From contig NZ_LNDC01000105.1 in the NCBI RefSeq assembly GCF_001870905.1, positions 1 through 56,570 on the forward strand: 56,570 nt of DNA, written 5' to 3'. Below the pieces are notes generated by a model that saw only the letters and a program-made list of their open reading frames with translations, did no database searches and had not been told where the DNA came from. Positions 8,018 to 19,160 of this stretch are shown here, one piece after another. Position 1 is the first letter of the stretch. Each line of letters opens with the position of its first letter. The position numbers and the translations under genes are program-made. This stretch comes from Geitlerinema sp. PCC 9228. GTDB lineage: Bacteria; Cyanobacteriota; Cyanobacteriia; Cyanobacteriales; PCC-9228.

Positions 8018-8701
8018 TTATGACGCCTCAAACGCTGGTAGCGACCAAACCGACGGATCGATATCCGCCAAAGAAGACAAAAAGACCGTTCCTTCCGGAT
8101 ACAAACTGCGATCGGCATCCGCTGCCGGTACCACCACCACCGACATACCCGCTGCCCTAGCTGCCAACACCCCAGCCGGAGAATCCTCAAACACCAAACA
8201 AGTTTCTGGCGGTGCTTGCAAGCGTTCCGCTGTCACCGTAAAAATATCCGGTTCTGGTTTGCCCTGTTTGACCGCCGGGTCGTCTCCCAACACCACGCAG
8301 TCAAAAATCGAAAACCATTCTTGGTGGCGACTGGTTTTTAGAGAAAACGGATAGCGAGCGGTACTGGTGGCAACCGCTTGGGGAACACCGTGGCGGTAAA
8401 GGTGGTACGTTAGCCGCACTGCCCCAGGCATGGGTTTGGCACGGGGAAACAGTTCAAACAAATATTCGTTGCGTCGATCCATATATTCTTTCGCCGTCAG
8501 CGGCAACGAAAGAGTTTCCACCGCCAACTGTGCCGATTCGATGGAAGGACGACCGGTCATTTGGGATTTCAACGCTTTCGTAAATGTCTTGCCGTGGGCA
8601 CGTGCCAAGGTGGCGTTTACTTGAGCGTGTAAGGATTCCGTATCCAACAGCAGACCGTCTAAATCGTAAATAACGTGGGAAATTTGTTTGCTCGTTTCCA
8701 T
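8018..8701 (-). CDS. HAD-superfamily phosphatase (beta-phosphoglucomutase/GS1-like)
   Basis: 227 residues from the ATG at 8701, chosen because the HAD motif I (YDLDGLLLDTE) begins 13 residues later; an upstream in-frame ATG at 8734 would add a tail without homology. Motif II is TST in VATSTARY, motif III the Lys in KQGKPEPDIF, and motif IV FEDSPAGVLAA. The cap is helical. This subfamily acts on small sugar or nucleoside phosphates. It follows the 2H phosphoesterase gene by 83 nt on the same strand. It could therefore act on a ribose phosphate made in phosphonate breakdown, but that is inference from position. Confidence 0.85.
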   Translation of the reverse strand: METSKQISHVIYDLDGLLLDTESLHAQVNATLARAHGKTFTKALKSQMTGRPSIESAQLAVETLSLPLTAKEYMDRRNEYLFELFPRAKPMPGAVRLTYHLYRHGVPQAVATSTARYPFSLKTSRHQEWFSIFDCVVLGDDPAVKQGKPEPDIFTVTAERLQAPPETCLVFEDSPAGVLAARAAGMSVVVVPAADADRSLYPEGTVFLSSLADIDPSVWSLPAFEAS

Positions 8702-8784
8702 AGAAAATACACGCAAAAAAACGCAAGCCTTCACCCTACGGCATCCAGTATGCCAGATGCGTGGGATTTCTCAGACGGTCGCTT

Positions 8785-9390
8785 TTAATACAGCGGCCAG
8801 CATTGATGGCAGGTCCAATACATTTCGCATCTGCGATCGCTGGTAGTGGGAGAAGTCGAACGGCTGGTAACCGGCGAAACCGAATTGCGATCGCGAATGT
8901 GGCGTTGGTAAAACCTCAACTCCCATTCCAAAGGTGCCTTGGGTTCGATAAGTTCTTGGGCAATTTCTGCTAAATGCTCGTGCTGCTGCAGATCAAAATC
9001 GTACGCCAGGGAAAGATGCAACCAATTTTTGGGACGCAACGCTTCCCCACCTCTGCGGGCATCTACTTTTTGAATAAAGTTAGCAATCAGTTCTTTAATC
9101 CACTCCGAATGCAGTTCTATACCATGCCAATCCTGGCGAAACGTCATTTGGGAAATCTCGATCGCCGGTTGCGGACAAGTCGCGATCGCATGGCACCAAA
9201 CCTCGTGCAACGCCTGCAAGTAGCTCGTTACCGAGGTGACTTCATCGCGAAAAAATCCGGTTAAGCTACAATGGGGCATGTACTTGTGGGCGGTGTTGGC
9301 TCCGCATTCGATGCGGGTGCGGTGGAAATACGATTCTACTTGGCGAGAAAATTCTCCCACCGGACAAGCATAGACAATATACGTACCCAT
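8785..9390 (-). CDS. 2H-superfamily cyclic phosphodiesterase, linked to C-P lyase operon
   Basis: 201 residues with the two signature motifs of 2H phosphoesterases: HCSL at 40-43 and HLSL at 125-128. These supply the two catalytic histidines. Known members open 2',3'-cyclic nucleotides or ADP-ribose 1'',2''-cyclic phosphate. It begins 5 nt after the phnM stop, so it is almost certainly co-transcribed with phnG-M. C-P lyase releases 5-phosphoribosyl 1,2-cyclic phosphate, normally hydrolysed by PhnP, which is not seen in this window. The reaction class fits, so I infer that this protein may replace PhnP. The last 40 residues (rich in Arg, Ser and Cys) lie outside the 2H core. Confidence 0.8.
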   Translation of the reverse strand: MGTYIVYACPVGEFSRQVESYFHRTRIECGANTAHKYMPHCSLTGFFRDEVTSVTSYLQALHEVWCHAIATCPQPAIEISQMTFRQDWHGIELHSEWIKELIANFIQKVDARRGGEALRPKNWLHLSLAYDFDLQQHEHLAEIAQELIEPKAPLEWELRFYQRHIRDRNSVSPVTSRSTSPTTSDRRCEMYWTCHQCWPLY

Positions 9391-9395
9391 GATGG

Positions 9396-10532
9396 TTAGG
9401 CGACTCGCTTTCCGCTACGAATAACAGCACTCAATCGCGGCACATTTCCATCATCGCGTACGCAAACCAAATCTGCCCGTTTTCCTATTTCCAAACTACC
9501 GCGATCGCCGAACAAGCCAATAGCTTTGGCGGGATTGCTGGTCACCAAACGCATGGTTTCGTACAATGGTTTTCCTGTCTTTTCGCTAACGATAAACACC
9601 GATTGTAACAAACTGTGCGGAACGTAATCGGAAGATAAAATATCCCCAAACCCTTGGGCAATTAAATCCATAGCCGCCACATTCCCAGAATGGGAACCAC
9701 CCAGTACCACATTGGGTGCCCCCAACAATACTTGCAAGCCCCGATTGTGGGCGGTTTGAGCGGCTTCGACTGTGGTGGGAAATTCCGCGATCGCAGCGCC
9801 ATCTTTGACGGCTTCCTGTACGTGGTCTGCGGTGGCATCGTCGTGGCTGGCAAGGGAAATGCCCCGTTGCTGGGTTAAATTCACCAAAGCCTGGCGATTT
9901 TGTTGGGCGTATCTCTGTTGGTTTTGTTGGCGGGAACGAATAAATTCCTCCATTTCTGCTGCCGAAATGCCATGTTTGCCCATGTAATATTCTTTGTACT
10001 TGTCAATACTGACAAACTGGCGTTGCCCTGGGGTATGGTCCATTAAAGAAATTAAAGTCAGCAAGGAATTATCGGCATATTGTTCCGCTACTTCGCAAAC
10101 ACTTTCGTAGGATAATTCGCAGCGTAAATGCAGGCGATGGTCAGCAGCAAATTTCTGTTCTTTTTGTCCTTTTTCAATAACATCAATGGCGGGGGCAAAA
10201 TCCCTCAAACGCCGGCTTCCTGGTTTGATATCTCCAATAGCGATCGCATCGCAAACGGTGGTAATCCCCGCACCAATTAAATCGCGATCGTGATAGGTGG
10301 CTGCTGCTTCTAAAGGCCATTCAATTCCCGGACGCGGCGACATACATTTTTCTAAATTATCGGTATGCAGTTCGATCGAACCAGGCATTAAAATTTCCCC
10401 TTCACCATTTTTTCCTTGGTTGACTATACCCGGCTGAATATCCGCGATCGCGCCATCTCTAACTACCAACGTTCCCAAAATTTCTTCATCGGGAAGCTGC
10501 AATCGATAGTTGGTATAAATTTGTTCGTTCAT
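9396..10532 (-). CDS. phnM: alpha-D-ribose 1-methylphosphonate 5-triphosphate diphosphatase
   Basis: 378 residues, the usual length. PhnM belongs to the amidohydrolase superfamily and removes pyrophosphate from ribose 1-phosphonate 5-triphosphate before C-P bond cleavage by PhnJ. Visible family motifs are MPGSIELHTDNLEKCM with the metal-binding HxD, RPGIEWP, LISLMDHTPGQRQF, ASHDDATADHV and LSSDYVPHSLL. It lies 43 nt behind phnL and 5 nt before the 2H phosphoesterase gene on the same strand, as part of the phnG-M operon. The enzyme is cytoplasmic. Confidence 0.95.
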   Translation of the reverse strand: MNEQIYTNYRLQLPDEEILGTLVVRDGAIADIQPGIVNQGKNGEGEILMPGSIELHTDNLEKCMSPRPGIEWPLEAAATYHDRDLIGAGITTVCDAIAIGDIKPGSRRLRDFAPAIDVIEKGQKEQKFAADHRLHLRCELSYESVCEVAEQYADNSLLTLISLMDHTPGQRQFVSIDKYKEYYMGKHGISAAEMEEFIRSRQQNQQRYAQQNRQALVNLTQQRGISLASHDDATADHVQEAVKDGAAIAEFPTTVEAAQTAHNRGLQVLLGAPNVVLGGSHSGNVAAMDLIAQGFGDILSSDYVPHSLLQSVFIVSEKTGKPLYETMRLVTSNPAKAIGLFGDRGSLEIGKRADLVCVRDDGNVPRLSAVIRSGKRVA

Positions 10533-10575: not shown

Positions 10576-11316
10576 TTATCGCTCAAAAACCAGCTCGCAG
10601 TTGCAAACTTGAGAACGTACATCTTGGTCGTGGAAAATCCCAATAATGGCACATCCCTGAGATTTTTTCTCTTGAATACTGTCGATAATAACCTGACGGT
10701 TGGCAGCATCCAAAGCCGATGTAGGTTCGTCTAACAAAAAAATAGGATAATTAACAGCAAACGCACGGGCAACATTTACCCGCTGTTGTTCCCCTCCCGA
10801 AAAGGTAGTTGGCGACAAATGCCACAGCCGTTCTGGTAACTGAAAACGAGCAAACCATTCTTTCACTTTTTGATAGGCTTGTTCTGGTTGTTCTCCCAGT
10901 TCTAACAACGGTTCTGCTGCTACTTCAATGGCTGGTACTCGGGGAATTACTCGTAAAAATTGACTGACGTAACCAATGGTTTTTCGACGGATTTCCATGA
11001 GTTCGTGGGGCAACAATTGGGGAAGATTTACCCATTTCCCCTCATGTTTGACCCAAATCGCACCGCCATCCAAACCGTAATTGCCATACAGCGATCGCAT
11101 AAATGTAGATTTCCCAGAACCAGAAACCCCCGACAAAGCCACACATTCCCCAGGATAAACGGTTAAAGAAACCCCCTGCAAAACCGGCAACTCAACACCA
11201 CCCTGATTGTGCAAGATAAAACTCTTGTATAAATGGCGAGCTTGCAATAAGAATGTTGCTGTTTCATCCGGGGAATTTTTCTGATGGGTAGCTATATGAA
11301 ACGATTCCGAAACCAT
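10576..11316 (-). CDS. phnL: Phosphonate C-P lyase system ATP-binding subunit PhnL
   Basis: 246 residues with a Walker A motif GVSGSGKST at 63-71, signature SGGEQQRVNVARA and Walker B IFLLDEPTSALD. Together with PhnG, H, I and M, PhnL is needed to make the ribose phosphonate triphosphate from ATP and phosphonate. The C-P lyase ABC proteins are not transporters and bind the PhnGHIJ core. About 200 nt separate it from phnK, more than between the other genes of the operon, and that gap holds a 21-bp inverted repeat. Confidence 0.94.
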   Translation of the reverse strand: MVSESFHIATHQKNSPDETATFLLQARHLYKSFILHNQGGVELPVLQGVSLTVYPGECVALSGVSGSGKSTFMRSLYGNYGLDGGAIWVKHEGKWVNLPQLLPHELMEIRRKTIGYVSQFLRVIPRVPAIEVAAEPLLELGEQPEQAYQKVKEWFARFQLPERLWHLSPTTFSGGEQQRVNVARAFAVNYPIFLLDEPTSALDAANRQVIIDSIQEKKSQGCAIIGIFHDQDVRSQVCNCELVFER

Positions 11317-11516: not shown

Positions 11517-12287
11517 CTAAGGCGTTAACGTAGCACTCACCAATTGCTGCGTATAAGCATGACTGGGGTCATCTAAAACTCGATCGGTAATTCCCGCTTC
11601 TACAACTTCTCCATTTTTCATAACCAACAACCGATGGGCAAGCAATCTAACCACACCAATATCGTGGGTCACCAAAATTACACTCAGATTTAAAGTACGT
11701 ACCAGCGATCGCAACAAATCCAACAAACGAGCTTGTACGGAAACATCCAATCCCCCCGTCGGTTCGTCCATCAAAACCAACCGAGGCTGCGTCGCCAGGA
11801 CCCTCGCCAGTTGCAAGCGTTGCTGCATTCCCCCAGAAAACGTATGGGGCAATCCATCCAAGCGATCGCTGTCAACTTCCACCTGTTGCAGCCAATAAGC
11901 CGCATCCGAGCGAATTTTACCGTAGTTGCGTACCCCCAAATCCAACAAACGTTCGCCAACATTGGCACCCGCTGTCACACCCATACGCAAACCATCCTGG
12001 GGATTTTGCCGCACAAATCCCCATTCCGTACGCATCAAATGGCGGCGTTGGGATTCGTCAATGTGCAACATTTCCCAAACTTCACCATTTTTATCGGTAT
12101 ATCGAACGCTCCCATTTTCAACAGAAATGGCTCCAGCGATCGCATTCAGCAGCGTTGTTTTCCCCGAACCCGACTCGCCAACAATTCCCAAAACTTGCCC
12201 CGGATACAAATCAAAGGAAATGCGATCGCACGCCCGAATTTCTCCATATTCTTTCTGAATATTCTTAACAGTCAACAACGGTTCCAT
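11517..12287 (-). CDS. phnK: Phosphonate C-P lyase system ATP-binding subunit PhnK
   Basis: 256 residues from MEPLLTVKN; a longer frame upstream to 12365 carries no homology and overlaps phnJ. It has Walker A GESGSGKTT, the PhnK-typical sequence WGFVRQNPQDGLRM, signature SGGMQQRLQLARVL and Walker B LVLMDEPTGGLDVSVQARLL. PhnK resembles dipeptide transporter ATPases, but in E. coli it binds PhnJ in the C-P lyase core and drives conformational change. It starts 32 nt after phnJ. Confidence 0.95.
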   Translation of the reverse strand: MEPLLTVKNIQKEYGEIRACDRISFDLYPGQVLGIVGESGSGKTTLLNAIAGAISVENGSVRYTDKNGEVWEMLHIDESQRRHLMRTEWGFVRQNPQDGLRMGVTAGANVGERLLDLGVRNYGKIRSDAAYWLQQVEVDSDRLDGLPHTFSGGMQQRLQLARVLATQPRLVLMDEPTGGLDVSVQARLLDLLRSLVRTLNLSVILVTHDIGVVRLLAHRLLVMKNGEVVEAGITDRVLDDPSHAYTQQLVSATLTP

Positions 12288-12319
12288 AATTCCCCCAAAA
12301 GTTCGCACCTCTCTGCCAA

Positions 12320-13165
12320 CTACGACTGCCGAGACTGACAATAATCCGTATCCGAACAAATCCACATTCTGGTTCCCTGGTCGTCAATCACCACCTCATC
12401 GAGATAGCTTTCTGTAGAACCGCAAAACCCACAGGCATGGTCCCATTTTTGTACCGAAAACGGATAATCTTCAAAATCCAAACTTTTCACTTTTGTATAG
12501 GGAGGAATGGCATAAATACGTTTTTCTCTCCCTGCCCCAAACAACTGTAAAGCCGGACTCATATTCATTTTGGGATTGTCAAATTTGGGAATGGGACTGG
12601 GACTCATCAAATAGCGATCGTTCACCATAACCGGATAATCGTAAGCCGTCGCGATCGCACCATATTGGGTAATATCCTCGTAAAGCTTGACATACATAGA
12701 ACCGTATTCCTGCCAGGCATGCATTTTCTTCGCCTCCGCCACCGACGGTTCCAACCAACGCAACGGTTCTGGAATGGGAACTTGATATACCATAATTTGT
12801 CCCGGTTGTAAAGGCGTTTCCGGAATGCGATGGCGGGTTTGAATTATCGTTGCCTCATTGGTTTTTTCCGTGGTTTTCACACCACAAACCTTCGCAAAAA
12901 AACGGCGAATATTCACCGCATTGGTGGTATCATCCGCCCCCTGGTCAATTACCTTCAAAACATCATCTTGGCCAATCGTGGAAGCCGTCACCTGAACGCC
13001 ACCCGTTCCCCATCCATAAGACATAGGCATTTCCCGCGAAGAAAACGGAATTTGATGCCCGGGAATCGCGATCGCTTTCAAACAAGACCGCCGAATCGAA
13101 CGTTTGGTTTGTTCGTCCAAATAGGCAAAATTAAACCCCAATTCCGTATCTTGATATACAGACAT
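12320..13165 (-). CDS. phnJ: C-P lyase, radical SAM subunit (alpha-D-ribose 1-methylphosphonate 5-phosphate C-P lyase)
   Basis: 281 residues from MSVYQDTELGFNFAYLDEQ, the normal PhnJ start. PhnJ cleaves the C-P bond with a glycyl radical and a 4Fe-4S cluster and releases methane and 5-phosphoribosyl 1,2-cyclic phosphate. The four conserved cysteines near the C-terminus are all present: HACGFCGS and WICSDTDYC. The Gly-rich segment SYGWGTGGVQVTASTIG is intact. It lies 58 nt behind phnI. Confidence 0.97.
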   Translation of the reverse strand: MSVYQDTELGFNFAYLDEQTKRSIRRSCLKAIAIPGHQIPFSSREMPMSYGWGTGGVQVTASTIGQDDVLKVIDQGADDTTNAVNIRRFFAKVCGVKTTEKTNEATIIQTRHRIPETPLQPGQIMVYQVPIPEPLRWLEPSVAEAKKMHAWQEYGSMYVKLYEDITQYGAIATAYDYPVMVNDRYLMSPSPIPKFDNPKMNMSPALQLFGAGREKRIYAIPPYTKVKSLDFEDYPFSVQKWDHACGFCGSTESYLDEVVIDDQGTRMWICSDTDYCQSRQS

Positions 13166-13223
13166 AACCAATCTCTTCCATAAAAACCTTTGTGTCTTTG
13201 TGGTTCCCAATCATTGAATTTTT

Positions 13224-14312
13224 CTACTGCGAATCTTTTTTTTGACGAATCCGCATATCCCGCAACATATTCAACTCCGCCTGAAAATCAATATAGTGGG
13301 GTAATTTTAAATGTTGCACGAACCCTTGAGCCTCCACATTATCCGAATGGGAAAGCACAAATTCTTCATTTTGAGCCGGACTTTCCGCCGATTCGCCCAA
13401 TTCTTGCGATCGCAAAGCCCGATCGACCAAAGCCATCGACATCGCCTTGCGTTCGTTATAGCCAAACGTCAACCCATATCCCCGAGTAAACTGCGGTGGC
13501 ACCTCCTTGCTACCCGTAAATTGGTTCACCATCTGCACTTCCGTAATATCAATTTCCGCGATCGCCACCTCAAAACCCAACTCCTCCGGGAAAATCGCCA
13601 CTTCCACCTCACCCACCCGAATTTCCCCAGCAAAAGGATGGTTTTTTCCATACCCTCTTTGCGTAGAATAGGCAAGACTCAACAAAAAGCCTTCATCCGC
13701 ACGGGCTAAATTTTGCAATCGAGCTTCCCGAGAGGCGGGAAAATTTAAAGGCTGTCGCGTTAAATCGTCCACTGAATCCTTTTTCGTAGCATTTTCCGGC
13801 TGAATCAAACCTTCTGCCCCCAGAGCATCGATGGCTGGTGGCATATCGGAGGTTGCTGTGGTATCGCCGTCTTCGGTTTCCGGTGGTTGGGGTTGGTTTC
13901 CTTCGGCAGCCAATTTAAAATCCAGCAAACGGTGTATGTAATCAAACGTTGCCCCCAGTTGTTGCCCGCCGGGAACATCTTTAAAGATGCTGGAAATGCG
14001 GCGATGGACCTGCATTTGGCTGGTATCGATGGGCTGGCTGTAGTACCAACGCGGTAATGTGGTGCGATAGGCTCTCAGTAGAAAAATCGCCTCGACCACA
14101 TCTCCCCAAGCCTGTTTGATGGCTAGTGCGGCAAGTTCGCGATCGTACAAACTGCCTTCGCACATGACACGATTGACAGCCAAAGTCAATTGTTCTTGGA
14201 TTTGTGCCAAACTCAACTCTGGCGTATTGGGGTCGCCGCGACGCCAGGCTTGCAGCAAAGCTTCGGCATTGCGAATGGCTTTTTCGCCACCTTTTACGGC
14301 TACGTAAGCCAT
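13224..14312 (-). CDS. phnI: C-P lyase complex subunit PhnI
   Basis: 362 residues. The start at 14312 (MAYVAVKGGEKAIRNAEALL) is supported by an AGGAGGAA ribosome site just upstream; the frame is open further upstream but without homology. PhnI, with PhnG, H and L, transfers phosphonate to C1 of ATP ribose, releasing adenine. Family segments seen are GFLLSLAYSTQRGYGKNHPF and TRGYGLTFGYNERKAMSMA. It lies 38 nt after phnH. Residues about 200-245 (acidic, Pro-rich) form a linker. Confidence 0.95.
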   Translation of the reverse strand: MAYVAVKGGEKAIRNAEALLQAWRRGDPNTPELSLAQIQEQLTLAVNRVMCEGSLYDRELAALAIKQAWGDVVEAIFLLRAYRTTLPRWYYSQPIDTSQMQVHRRISSIFKDVPGGQQLGATFDYIHRLLDFKLAAEGNQPQPPETEDGDTTATSDMPPAIDALGAEGLIQPENATKKDSVDDLTRQPLNFPASREARLQNLARADEGFLLSLAYSTQRGYGKNHPFAGEIRVGEVEVAIFPEELGFEVAIAEIDITEVQMVNQFTGSKEVPPQFTRGYGLTFGYNERKAMSMALVDRALRSQELGESAESPAQNEEFVLSHSDNVEAQGFVQHLKLPHYIDFQAELNMLRDMRIRQKKDSQ

Positions 14313-14350
14313 ACAAGTTCCTCCTATTCTAGAAATATTGCGGATGGTGT

Positions 14351-14944
14351 CTACAAACTGACCTGGGTGGTACGGGGCAAACCCAGAACTTGCTCTTCGG
14401 TAAAGAAAACGATATCTACGCCGAGGGGGTAGCGACGGGTATTTTGCTGCCACTGTTGCCAAAAGTCTGGTGGCATGCCCACTAGGGAAAGCTCGCATGG
14501 GTGCAAAATTCCCGGTCCGCTACAGGAAACGGTGGGAAGATTGGGAGATTGGGCAAAACTCGGTAGTTGTACGAATAATGTGGTCGAGCGTTCCGGGTCG
14601 AGTGCCGTACCGGGGCAAAAGGCAGATAGTGCTGGCATGGCAAGGGAATCGCCAATAATGGCAAAGTCAGCCGCTGGTGGGGAATCGCTGAAACGACAGC
14701 CGGTGTGAAATAGCAGCCATTCGCGAACTTGGGCGGAAAATCCCGGTTGCAGCCAGACTTGGGTTTCCAGATCCAGCAGGGTCAGGCAAGCAACGGCACA
14801 TCCATTGTTGAGACCGGTTGGGGGTTGCAAGCGTATGGGCAGGGGTCTGGGTTGAGCTGGCTGGGATAGGGCTGTTAGCAATTCGCGGAAGGTTTGTTGG
14901 GCGTCGGTTATGGGTTGGGCAAACCCTGGTTGTTGCACTGTCAT
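14351..14944 (-). CDS. phnH: C-P lyase complex subunit PhnH
   Basis: 197 residues, the usual length, beginning PGFAQPITDAQQTFRELLTA and ending with the family's PLGVDIVFF segment. PhnH is a dimeric component of the C-P lyase core (PhnGHIJ) with a PLP-transferase-like fold but no cofactor. It lies 30 nt behind phnG and in the same operon. Nothing unusual was seen. Confidence 0.94.
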   Translation of the reverse strand: MTVQQPGFAQPITDAQQTFRELLTALSQPAQPRPLPIRLQPPTGLNNGCAVACLTLLDLETQVWLQPGFSAQVREWLLFHTGCRFSDSPPAADFAIIGDSLAMPALSAFCPGTALDPERSTTLFVQLPSFAQSPNLPTVSCSGPGILHPCELSLVGMPPDFWQQWQQNTRRYPLGVDIVFFTEEQVLGLPRTTQVSL

Positions 14945-14974: not shown

Positions 14975-15430
14975 TTATTCTCCACGGAGCAAGGTGAAAA
15001 AGTCTACCTTGGTGGTTTCGCATTGGCGTTGGGTTTGTTGTTTTTGGTGTTCGGCGATCGCTTGTAGGGGGTCGATAACGTTGGTTTGGACTTGGAGTTG
15101 CCACTGGGGATGCTGCATCAAAGCATCGCAGACGGCAGCTATTTCTGCATGGCGGTGCGATCGCCCGGCTACATAGCCGAATCCGTTGTATCCTTCCATT
15201 TTTACGACACAACGGGTTACGGTCATTTCCCCTAAGTTGAAGGGATTGCCGGTGCCACCGGTACGACCGCGGACCATAACCAACCCGATTTCTGGCGATC
15301 GCAAAAACTTGTAGTCGGGAAGGGAAGACAGTTGCCCGAAGTAAGCTTGCAGGTCTGGGAGGGAGGCTTTGGCTAGGGTTGCCATCCACTGCTTTCGTCT
15401 AGTTGTGGTAGAACAGTCACCAGAATTCAT
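14975..15430 (-). CDS. phnG: C-P lyase complex subunit PhnG
   Basis: 151 residues from the ATG at 15430 (MNSGDCSTTTRRKQWMATLA). The RKQWM start, MVRGRTGGTGNPFNLGEMTV and GYNGFGYVAGRSHRHAEIAA segments are typical for PhnG. It is the first gene of the C-P lyase operon, transcribed away from phnF over a 105-bp promoter region with a HutC-type operator, so repression by PhnF is likely. Confidence 0.95.
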   Translation of the reverse strand: MNSGDCSTTTRRKQWMATLAKASLPDLQAYFGQLSSLPDYKFLRSPEIGLVMVRGRTGGTGNPFNLGEMTVTRCVVKMEGYNGFGYVAGRSHRHAEIAAVCDALMQHPQWQLQVQTNVIDPLQAIAEHQKQQTQRQCETTKVDFFTLLRGE

Positions 15431-15496
15431 GGCAATCTTCAAAATTTGGGTTCGGTATGTATCTTGGCTTACATTACCCCACAAAATTTGATATTA

Positions 15497-15535: not shown

Positions 15536-16303
15536 ATGAAAGCAATTGACAATTCCCAACCGGAAAAATTTACCCTTCGGCATTCTAGCTTGCCAATTTA
15601 TGCTCAAATTGCCGAAGAACTCCGCAATGATATCCAAAAGGGCATGTATCAAGTAGGCGATCGCTTGCCCACCGAAGCCCAACTCAGCCAGCATTTTGGC
15701 GTCAATCGCCATACCCTACGTCGAGCCATTTCCGAACTGAAAAACGAAGGCTTGCTACGAGTAGACCGCGGTCGGGGCACCTTTGTTGCCGCCACGCCTA
15801 TTTACTACGCCATTAACAGTCGGGTTCGTTACAACGAATCCCTAAAAGCTCAAGGACTCGAACCGAAAATGCAACTGCTGCGTGTCATTCAAACCGAAGC
15901 CGATGCGGCAGTTGCCAAAGCGTTGCAATTGCCCCTTAGCGATCCCGTGGCTTTGGTGGAACGGTTTGGTTTAGCCAACGAACAACCCATCTGTTTGAAC
16001 AGCAGCTACTTTCCTTTGCAGCGTTTTCCCGATTTTGTAGAAAAGTGCCAGCATCTTACCCTCATTTCCATTTCCAAATTTCTACAGGAAAACTACAACT
16101 GCGACCACATCCGGCAATCGACGCGGGTTTCCACTCGTTTGGTGAATCCCCAGGATGCCCAACGGTTGTCTTTACCTGCCAGCCTGCCGGTCTTGGTGGT
16201 GGAATCCATCAATATCGATAGCCAGCAGCATCCCATTGAATACGGCATTACCCGATTTCGCGGCGATCGCGTGGAACTGGTTTTCGACAACCAATCCCCA
16301 TAA
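15536..16303 (+). CDS. phnF: GntR-family (HutC/UTRA) regulator of phosphonate genes
   Basis: 255 residues. The N-terminal winged helix (residues about 15-85) has LPIYAQIAEELRNDIQKGMY, DRLPTEAQLSQHFGVNRHTL and GRGTFVA. The UTRA effector domain follows (about 95-250), ending RFRGDRVELVFD. It is divergent from phnG. Family members repress phosphonate genes and release DNA on binding a ligand; for mycobacterial PhnF this responds to phosphate. The likely operator is at 15497-15511, so autoregulation is expected. The ligand cannot be read from the sequence. Confidence 0.93.
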   Translation: MKAIDNSQPEKFTLRHSSLPIYAQIAEELRNDIQKGMYQVGDRLPTEAQLSQHFGVNRHTLRRAISELKNEGLLRVDRGRGTFVAATPIYYAINSRVRYNESLKAQGLEPKMQLLRVIQTEADAAVAKALQLPLSDPVALVERFGLANEQPICLNSSYFPLQRFPDFVEKCQHLTLISISKFLQENYNCDHIRQSTRVSTRLVNPQDAQRLSLPASLPVLVVESINIDSQQHPIEYGITRFRGDRVELVFDNQSP

Positions 16304-16851: not shown

Positions 16852-17697
16852 TCAAACCAACCAACCGCGTAATTTTCCAGAAACCGTATCGATAGACCCC
16901 GTAGCCAGCACCAAAATAATTAAAATTGCACATACTTTTTGATACTCAAAGGACATAAAACTCTGATAGAGGGAAACCCCAATGCCACCGGCACCCACAA
17001 TTCCCACCACCGCCGCCGAACGTACGTTCGACTCGAAACGATATAAGGCAAACGATGCCCACAAAGGAATTACCTGGGGAATCACGCCAAAAATAATTTC
17101 TTGGATTTTGCTGGCACCCGTGGCACGAATTCCCTCTACTGGTCCGGGGTCGATTGCTTCCACTGCCTCTGAAAACAGTTTGCCTAAAATACCAGTGGTG
17201 TGTACGGATAAAGCCATAACTCCGGCAAAGGGCCCCAATCCCACGGCGGTAACAAACATCAATGCAAAGACAATTTCGTTAATGGCTCGCATGGCATCGA
17301 GGAATCGTCGCGTGGGTTGTACCACCCAAACCGGACTGATGTTTCCCGAAGCCAGTACGGACAGAGGGATAGCAGCTATAGCAGCCATTAAGGTTCCCCA
17401 AATTCCCATGGAAATGGTGACTAGGGTATCCCCTAGATAGGTTTTCCAATAGGTAAAATCTGGGGGAAAATAGGCAATTAAATAGGTGCCAATATTGCCA
17501 CTGCCCTGAAATAGGGTGATGAAGTTTAGCTCGCTTTGCCAGTAGGAAAGAATTAAAATTGCGATCGCGATCGCCAAATAGCCAATTCGCAAGGGAGTAA
17601 TGCGTTTTTGCTCCCGTTCCAACATGGCAGTAGCTGCCAGCGAAAATTCCTGCTTCTGGTCTTTGGAAAAATAGCTAGATTGATTGCTAGACTTCAT
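16852..17697 (-). CDS. phnE: Phosphonate ABC transporter permease
   Basis: 281 residues with about six membrane segments. The family's cytoplasmic loop with RATGASKIQEIIFGVIPQV, the EAA-type coupling motif, is clear, as are DAMRAINEIVFAL and GAGGIGVSLYQS. PhnE forms the inner-membrane channel of PhnCDE and takes up phosphonates or phosphite. It is the last gene of phnC-D-E on the minus strand. The gap to phnD is 389 nt, unusually long. A tnpB relic borders its 3' end. Confidence 0.93.
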   Translation of the reverse strand: MKSSNQSSYFSKDQKQEFSLAATAMLEREQKRITPLRIGYLAIAIAILILSYWQSELNFITLFQGSGNIGTYLIAYFPPDFTYWKTYLGDTLVTISMGIWGTLMAAIAAIPLSVLASGNISPVWVVQPTRRFLDAMRAINEIVFALMFVTAVGLGPFAGVMALSVHTTGILGKLFSEAVEAIDPGPVEGIRATGASKIQEIIFGVIPQVIPLWASFALYRFESNVRSAAVVGIVGAGGIGVSLYQSFMSFEYQKVCAILIILVLATGSIDTVSGKLRGWLV

Positions 17698-18086: not shown

Positions 18087-19160
18087 TCAAGTTGTACTCA
18101 AACTTTCCAACTGTTTGTTTAGCTCTTCCAGCCGGCTTTCTTTTTCCGATGGTTGCAAATCAGGATTTGATTTTATTTCCATAATTTGGCGACCAATGTC
18201 CAATTCTCGTACCGTATCCCAACGGGAATCATCGGCTTCCTCAAAACCAGACCATCCCAGTGGTTCCAAAACTGACTCCTCAGAATAATTATAGAAAAAG
18301 TTGCGAATTTTTTCTTTCAAACTATCCGGTAAATCTTGGCGATAGGCAATTGGATCGGAAGGAATAATGGGAGAGGTCCAAATGGTTTCGATTTTGTCTC
18401 TTGCTTGGGGATTGGTTTCTTCCAAACGAGACAAAGATTCGTTGTTGTTGGTAGCCACATCCACTTGATTGTTGGCTACTGCCAAAGCAGTCGCTTCGTG
18501 ACTGCCAGCGAAAACCACTTTTTCAAACGCTTCTTTGGGGTCTACATTATTTTTGGCGAAAATATAATAGCTGGGAACCAAAAAACCAGAAGTAGAGTTG
18601 GGGTCGTTAAAAGCGAAGGTAAGGTCCGAAGCATTTTCTAGAACGTATTTATCTCCTCCCATGTCTTTGGCTTGGGAGATAAAAGGTTGGTTGCGGTTGG
18701 CAATCAAATGGGAGTAGTATCCTTTTTCTCCCTCCGTTCCTACGGTGAGAGCGAAAGCCTCCGCATTGGCCCGTTTGGCAGCTTCAATATAAGATTTGCC
18801 CCCATACCAAGCCACCTGCACTTTTTTGAAACGCATGGCTTCAATAACGCCGGCGTATTGCGTCGCGTAAAAGGCTTTTACAGGCATACCGATTTCTTCC
18901 GACATAGCCTGTACGAAAGGTTCCCAAATGGGTTTTTGATTGGCTTGGGATTCGGTGGAAATAATCCCAAAGTTAATGGTGTCTACATCTAAGGTATCGT
19001 CGCCAACAGCTGCTTCGGAAGCGGTGGTATTGGTGGTTCCGGATTGGTTGCCGGCACCTTGGTTTTCGGAGGGATTGCCGCCGCAACTAGACAGAAGTTT
19101 GGCACCACTTAGGGAAAGAGCAAATAAAGAAGCGGATTGAACAAACAGACGTCTTTTCAT
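18087..19160 (-). CDS. phnD: Phosphonate/phosphate ABC transporter substrate-binding lipoprotein
   Basis: 357 residues. A signal peptide with the lipobox LSSC (Cys26) indicates a lipoprotein tethered outside the inner membrane. After a Ser/Thr/Asn-rich linker comes the PhnD-type binding fold: FGIISTESQANQKPIWEPF, MRFKKVQVAWYGGKSYIEAA, FNDPNSTSGFLVPSYYIF. It captures phosphonates, and similar PtxB/PhnD proteins bind phosphite. It starts 86 nt after phnC. The long C-terminal tail, rich in Glu and Ser, is family-typical for cyanobacteria. Confidence 0.93.
   Translation of the reverse strand: MKRRLFVQSASLFALSLSGAKLLSSCGGNPSENQGAGNQSGTTNTTASEAAVGDDTLDVDTINFGIISTESQANQKPIWEPFVQAMSEEIGMPVKAFYATQYAGVIEAMRFKKVQVAWYGGKSYIEAAKRANAEAFALTVGTEGEKGYYSHLIANRNQPFISQAKDMGGDKYVLENASDLTFAFNDPNSTSGFLVPSYYIFAKNNVDPKEAFEKVVFAGSHEATALAVANNQVDVATNNNESLSRLEETNPQARDKIETIWTSPIIPSDPIAYRQDLPDSLKEKIRNFFYNYSEESVLEPLGWSGFEEADDSRWDTVRELDIGRQIMEIKSNPDLQPSEKESRLEELNKQLESLSTT

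Follow-up and report, generated by a model that had tools for sequence, protein, structure and literature searches.

The gene that follows phnM in the phn cluster of Geitlerinema sp. PCC 9228 probably encodes a two-histidine (2H) cyclic phosphodiesterase that does the job of PhnP. This replacement, which a preliminary description of the DNA had predicted, is supported by the position of the gene, the predicted fold and invariant residues of its product, by matches to PhnP and PhnN that stay under their cut-offs, and by the linkage of the gene with phn genes across three phyla. In the route that we propose, PhnJ would release 5-phosphoribosyl 1,2-cyclic phosphate, and H40 and H125 of the 2H enzyme would open the ring by acid-base catalysis. 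The product would probably be ribose 1,5-bisphosphate, where substrate, product and regiochemistry are those that we infer. As PhnN is missing as well, the HAD phosphatase encoded next door may then remove the 1-phosphate, leaving phosphate and ribose 5-phosphate rather than PRPP. This last step is the weakest of the route and must be considered somewhat doubtful.

The window, by which we mean the whole stretch of 56,570 nucleotides that was analysed, corresponds to contig C105. The genome measures 4.8 Mb in 223 contigs and is listed as 100% complete. On the minus strand, the genes run in the order phnG (14975..15484) and phnH (14351..14944), both matched by their family models, phnI (open frame 13224..14498, its start by reading probably nearer 14309; PF05861, 539 bits), phnJ, which encodes the C-P bond cleaving subunit (12320..13210; PF06007, 498 bits), phnK (open frame 11517..12365, with a start that by reading is probably nearer 12284; TIGR02323), phnL (10576..11316; TIGR02324), phnM (9396..10532; NCBIfam TIGR02318, 498 bits with a cut-off of 391), the 2H gene (8785..9390) and the gene for a HAD_2 phosphatase (8018..8734). 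The regulator gene phnF is divergent and lies on the plus strand (15536..16303; TIGR02325). Two further minus-strand genes encode a phnE-type permease (16852..17697) and a phnD-type binding protein (18087..19160), which cluster with the annotated phnE and phnD of Nostoc sp. ATCC 53789, respectively. Promoter and terminator scans gave a signal no higher than in shuffles. The sequence GCGATCGC is present in 83 copies in the window versus 0.67 expected.

The 2H gene is an open frame for a protein of 201 aa (P0001), whose HxS motifs occupy residues 40-42 and 125-127. Its coordinates and those of phnM, on the same strand, leave a gap of 5 nt, in agreement with the preliminary description. The HAD frame starts 50 nt past the 2H stop, or 83 nt past it with the ATG at 8701 as start codon. 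Its product is a beta-PGM-like phosphatase that scores below the cut-offs of the named families, and it is our candidate for the next enzyme.

Neither phnP nor phnN is present in the phn cluster of the window, as had been described from the DNA, and a search of the whole genome extends this observation. The best match to the PhnP model (TIGR03307) reaches 41.9 bits against a cut-off of 272, and the best match to the PhnN model 68.9 bits against a cut-off of 156, so that none passes. In our sample of 388 cyanobacterial genomes, PhnJ occurs in 38 and PhnM in 40. Across the 38 PhnJ genomes, PhnP is over its cut-off in none (best 45 bits), and neither is PhnN (best 74.5 bits versus the cut-off of 156). 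Both searches had one control genome over the cut-off, from control lists that begin with E. coli. PhnP over cut-off was also found in 0 of 30 genomes of further 2H relatives, which include Chloroflexota and Actinomycetota. Weaker matches to the PhnP model are present in nine of those 30; five of them score 74-117 bits, and four of these five span the whole model.

Both HxS motifs of P0001 are intact (H40-C-S42 and H125-L-S127), again in line with the preliminary description. The two HxT/S motifs of the 2H phosphoesterase superfamily are present in P0001 and in all 53 aligned sequences. H40, H125, S127, R119, K121 and Y130 are invariant in 53/53, while residue 42 is T in 43 sequences and S in 10. 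By sequence, the 2H label is weak. PF13563 is the sole Pfam match of P0001 and, with 21.6 bits, lies below the gathering cut-off of 27; 39 of the 53 aligned sequences match this model at E 0.01 or better, the best at 2.9e-9. Among the NCBIfam models, TIGR03307 for PhnP included, none matched P0001 at an E value of 1 or below, and the family profile matched no solved structure up to E 1.

By the structure of the AlphaFold model, the predicted 2H label is firm. The window protein went into this model together with 52 relatives, and the result has a pLDDT of 93.1 and a pTM of 0.87. The lists that Foldseek and VIA-align returned for it are both headed by 2H proteins, with Z up to 13.8. The first four Foldseek rows have E values of 2.7e-4 to 1.9e-3 and TM scores of 0.47-0.49 over the model at 12-14% identity; two rows in all are at E 0.001 or better. 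In VIA-align, 1iuh and 5h7e reach a Z of 13.8, E. coli LigT 13.4, and 1fsi and 1jh6 12.8. Because many 2H enzymes tie at a VIA Z of 12-14, with Foldseek TM scores of only 0.47-0.49, the fold does not name the substrate. Near the C terminus, P0001 carries about 23 extra in-frame residues (about 167-190), where the model has lower confidence and which are absent from those aligned relatives that were shown.

The weak PF13563 match, and the fact that LigT and other CPDase folds give the best VIA Z, could be taken to indicate a LigT-type RNA-end or 2',3'-cyclic nucleotide phosphodiesterase that travels with phn genes by chance. We consider this very improbable, since the LigT model TIGR02258 leaves P0001 unmatched and matches just one of the 53 aligned sequences (E 0.048), and since the linkage with phn genes recurs in three phyla.

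To define the family in the 388 genomes, we used a profile from seven 2H members, which matched 48 of them. We counted 22 genomes as carrying the family: 21 with at least 236 bits, and G113, which was kept because its two pieces make up one open frame. Left out of this count were 21 genomes at 129-165 bits (19 from one genus, two from another), as well as G386, G253, G199, G046 and G038, where the matches are broken, long or weak. Of the 22 family genomes, 16 have PhnJ (p 1e-13) and 21 have PhnM over its cut-off (p 1e-22), with p values that ignore kinship, which confounds these co-occurrence counts. PhnI was found in none of the six family genomes without PhnJ.

In seven of the 16 genomes with both PhnJ and the 2H family, the 2H gene is located inside the phnJ locus. 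In G131 it lies on a separate contig beside genes for an HD-oxygenase, phnE, phnD and phnF, and in eight genomes the fetched stretch around it contains no phn gene. Altogether, 16 of the 38 PhnJ cyanobacteria carry the family, all of them without PhnP over cut-off, and there are also owners of the 2H gene without PhnJ. Thirteen of the 38 have neither the 2H gene nor the metallophosphoesterase described below, the latter judged by the fetched loci; five of these thirteen belong to one genus. One truncated and one frameshifted 2H copy occur among them.

Two kinds of paralogue were seen alongside. A divergent 2H paralogue of one genus resides in a common non-phn neighbourhood (L129-L132). The four mapped members of the 129-165-bit class, from the genus with 19 genomes, have such a shared non-phn neighbourhood and sit within the tree on a long branch of their own. 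A second phnM paralogue is found in or beside the phn clusters of L036, L037, L039-L042, L044, L047, L050, L055, L060, L065 and L067; its best NCBIfam model, in the one copy scanned, is NF011987.

A wider search of the GTDB genome set yielded 74 loci fetched from named genomes, which overlap with the 388-genome sample. In the gene maps, only genes over 45 bits were labelled, and phnK and phnL over 200. The tree omits L201, L209, L214 and L220, which are short or split, and L213 and L224, which had no model match. A phnI or phnJ gene lies within 10 kb of the 2H gene in 22 of the 74 loci, and these comprise nine from cyanobacteria, five from Chloroflexota, seven from Actinomycetota and one record labelled Gracilibacteria. 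Fifteen loci have phnM without phnI or phnJ, and 37 have no phnI, phnJ or phnM within reach. Outside the window genome, the 2H gene thus sits next to phn genes in some other cyanobacteria and in two more phyla. On plasmids, the 2H gene gave no match at E 0.001. The phn cluster of one Nostoc plasmid contains a fosA-like gene according to the record's annotation (L225 6692-7114).

PhnM is the next labelled upstream gene within 650 bp in 24 of the 74 loci and the commonest such neighbour, and two further loci with PhnM upstream were recognised by eye (L217 and L218). In two Chloroflexota loci among the 24 (L196 and L207), an unlabelled transferase-like gene stands between the PhnM and 2H genes. 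PhnN was considered for this position in Chloroflexota and rejected, as the gene in L196, L207 and L178 is by eye hexapeptide-repeat transferase-like. In L038, the position between phnM and the 2H gene is taken by an inositol-phosphatase-like gene.

A second set of results concerns genomes without C-P lyase. From the 52 loci lacking phnI and phnJ, 43 were checked, in 42 genomes. PhnJ is encoded elsewhere in 24 of these genomes, including the two with broken 2H copies. The 18 PhnJ-minus genomes contain PhnM over cut-off in seven cases and a broken match in one. The remaining ten include six of a Planktothrix type, four named Planktothrix and two Oscillatoriales assemblies, which show no PhnJ and no PhnM. 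In their loci, a gene of the HAD family comes directly after the 2H gene in the labelled maps (L181, L183, L186, L191, L192 and L214, with the L214 copy split into two frames). For the ten pairs of the five intact copies, dN/dS was 0.12-0.23 in the 2H gene and 0.05-0.13 in the HAD gene. The 2H gene is under purifying selection in these genomes. This means that C-P lyase is not the sole reason for keeping the 2H gene there, unless the loss of phnJ is very recent or phnJ is missing from the six assemblies. Moreover, two genomes that have neither phnJ nor phnI contain a stand-alone phnM-2H pair (L126 6937-8695 and L122 4370-6137).

If the 2H enzyme served something other than the C-P lyase product, both the selective maintenance of the 2H and HAD genes in Planktothrix-type genomes and the isolated phnM-2H pairs would be readily understood. 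We regard this explanation as rather unlikely, because the linkage to PhnM and PhnJ in three phyla would not easily be accounted for were the phn product no substrate. A further scenario makes the enzyme a partner of PhnM, acting on a relative of the PhnM substrate or product, for instance a cyclic compound with the 5-triphosphate still attached. The frequency of PhnM as the upstream neighbour, its occurrence in all but one of the 22 family genomes and the survival of phnM-2H pairs without phnJ would fit such a partnership. Its chances nevertheless appear slim, as PhnM as described in a passage of PMC3840354 makes no cyclic phosphate, and Planktothrix-type genomes keep the 2H gene without PhnM. 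The replacement of PhnP, which we favour, draws on the lack of PhnP over cut-off and on the phn linkage. The original prediction is supported in part: as a full account of the gene, replacement of PhnP is weakened by the retention of the gene in Planktothrix-type genomes and by the 13 of 38 PhnJ genomes with neither candidate enzyme. The PhnJ-minus genomes that keep PhnM, the eight PhnJ genomes with no phn gene around the 2H gene and the 37 loci without phnI, phnJ or phnM also count against it.

The second candidate is a calcineurin-like metallophosphoesterase, whose gene comes after an HD-oxygenase gene in seven phn loci and, on other contigs, in two genomes (L143 and L145). The nine loci, from two genera, are L041, L047, L048, L050, L052, L055, L061, L143 and L145. 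In the one member scanned, the best NCBIfam match is the 2',3'-cyclic nucleotide phosphodiesterase SpdA, with 155 bits versus a cut-off of 400. The counts of this gene and of the HAD gene refer to the fetched phn loci, some of which are cut by contig ends, and not to whole genomes. On this basis, the metallophosphoesterase is present in nine of the 38 PhnJ genomes, with no overlap with the 16 genomes that have the 2H gene (chance P 0.003); all nine represent two genera, and four carry the 2H paralogue of 129-165 bits. The in-cluster 2H gene precedes the HD-oxygenase gene and the metallophosphoesterase gene follows it, so the two lie on opposite sides of one gene and do not share a position. 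One genus includes both arrangements, with the 2H gene in the cluster of G308 and the metallophosphoesterase in that of four others. It is possible that this SpdA-like enzyme is a second stand-in for PhnP. Relatives of the metallophosphoesterase matched 583 plasmid records. The three proteobacterial loci that were opened have an adjoining ABC-ATPase-like frame, and none of them yielded a phn core gene, which implies that the metallophosphoesterase family, taken in its entirety, is not specific to phn loci.

The HAD gene is part of the fetched phn locus in five of the 38 PhnJ genomes, all of which have the 2H gene (P 0.009); in two of these loci (L053 and L056), the 2H gene is elsewhere. The HAD family recurs near the 2H gene in other loci.

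Taken together, these observations allow a broader and more speculative reading, in which the final steps of the C-P lyase pathway may have been rebuilt without PhnP and PhnN in cyanobacteria, Chloroflexota and Acidimicrobiia. Unrelated cyclic phosphodiesterases, either of the 2H family or SpdA-like metallophosphoesterases, would act first. An ordinary phosphatase would follow (HAD, or inositol-phosphatase-like in one locus), giving phosphate and ribose 5-phosphate and not PRPP. The 2H-HAD pair might also exist as a free-standing unit for the salvage of ribose cyclic phosphates where C-P lyase is missing.

T. erythraeum grows on methylphosphonate, although a passage in PMC10574752 describes it as devoid of PhnN, PhnO and PhnP, which turns the recovery of phosphate after C-P cleavage in such cyanobacteria into a question. 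For this recovery, our analysis puts forward two candidate enzyme families, the 2H family first, and one candidate for the step that follows. The 2H gene by itself is no marker of phosphonate use. The present 2H family was not found as a phn enzyme among the literature matches listed, in a search with most subscription journals outside its scope. As far as the searches go, its separate status, its spread across three phyla, its alternation with the metallophosphoesterase and its occurrence in genomes where C-P lyase is missing are new.

How does the 2H protein compare with known systems? PhnP is a metallo-beta-lactamase fold protein, whereas the window protein, for which we propose the same reaction, has a predicted 2H fold. 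The first four Foldseek rows for the P0001 model belong to the plant enzyme that acts on ADP-ribose cyclic phosphate, to which VIA-align assigns a Z of 12.8 and an rmsd of 3.2-3.4 A over 156-166 residues. Judging the substrate by the entry title, the first of these presumably has a ribose 1,2-cyclic phosphate as its substrate, with the type of bond found in the C-P lyase product, which agrees with the earlier remark that the 2H superfamily includes enzymes of this kind. PhnPP is a PHP-family enzyme that performs both steps, where we propose two proteins, 2H and HAD. According to passages in PMC8774927, the PhnPP route ends at ribose 5-phosphate, which is also the end product proposed here.

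The DUF1045 or 'RcsF' proteins (TIGR03223) have two HxT motifs in an alignment of 8 proteins, similar to the two HxS motifs of the window protein, and their gene adjoins phnN in Paracoccus and Loktanella. Passages in PMC3840354 and PMC10574752 place the 2H protein 'RcsF' in phn clusters without phnP and suggest that it may replace PhnP, so the idea of such a replacement by a 2H protein is not new. TIGR03223 gave no match at E 0.001 in the 38 PhnJ genomes, a negative that lacks a positive control because no control genome was over the cut-off. This model leaves the window protein unmatched and matches one of the 53 aligned sequences at E 0.012, and hhalign against DUF1045 proteins gave a probability of 2.4% and an E value of 0.019 with both motifs in register. 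Model scores give no support to membership of the window protein in DUF1045, and neither does the profile comparison, in which the low probability stands beside aligned motifs. The window protein does not score as a DUF1045 member, but the parallel drawn at the outset is apt as one of function: both proteins are proposed substitutes for PhnP.
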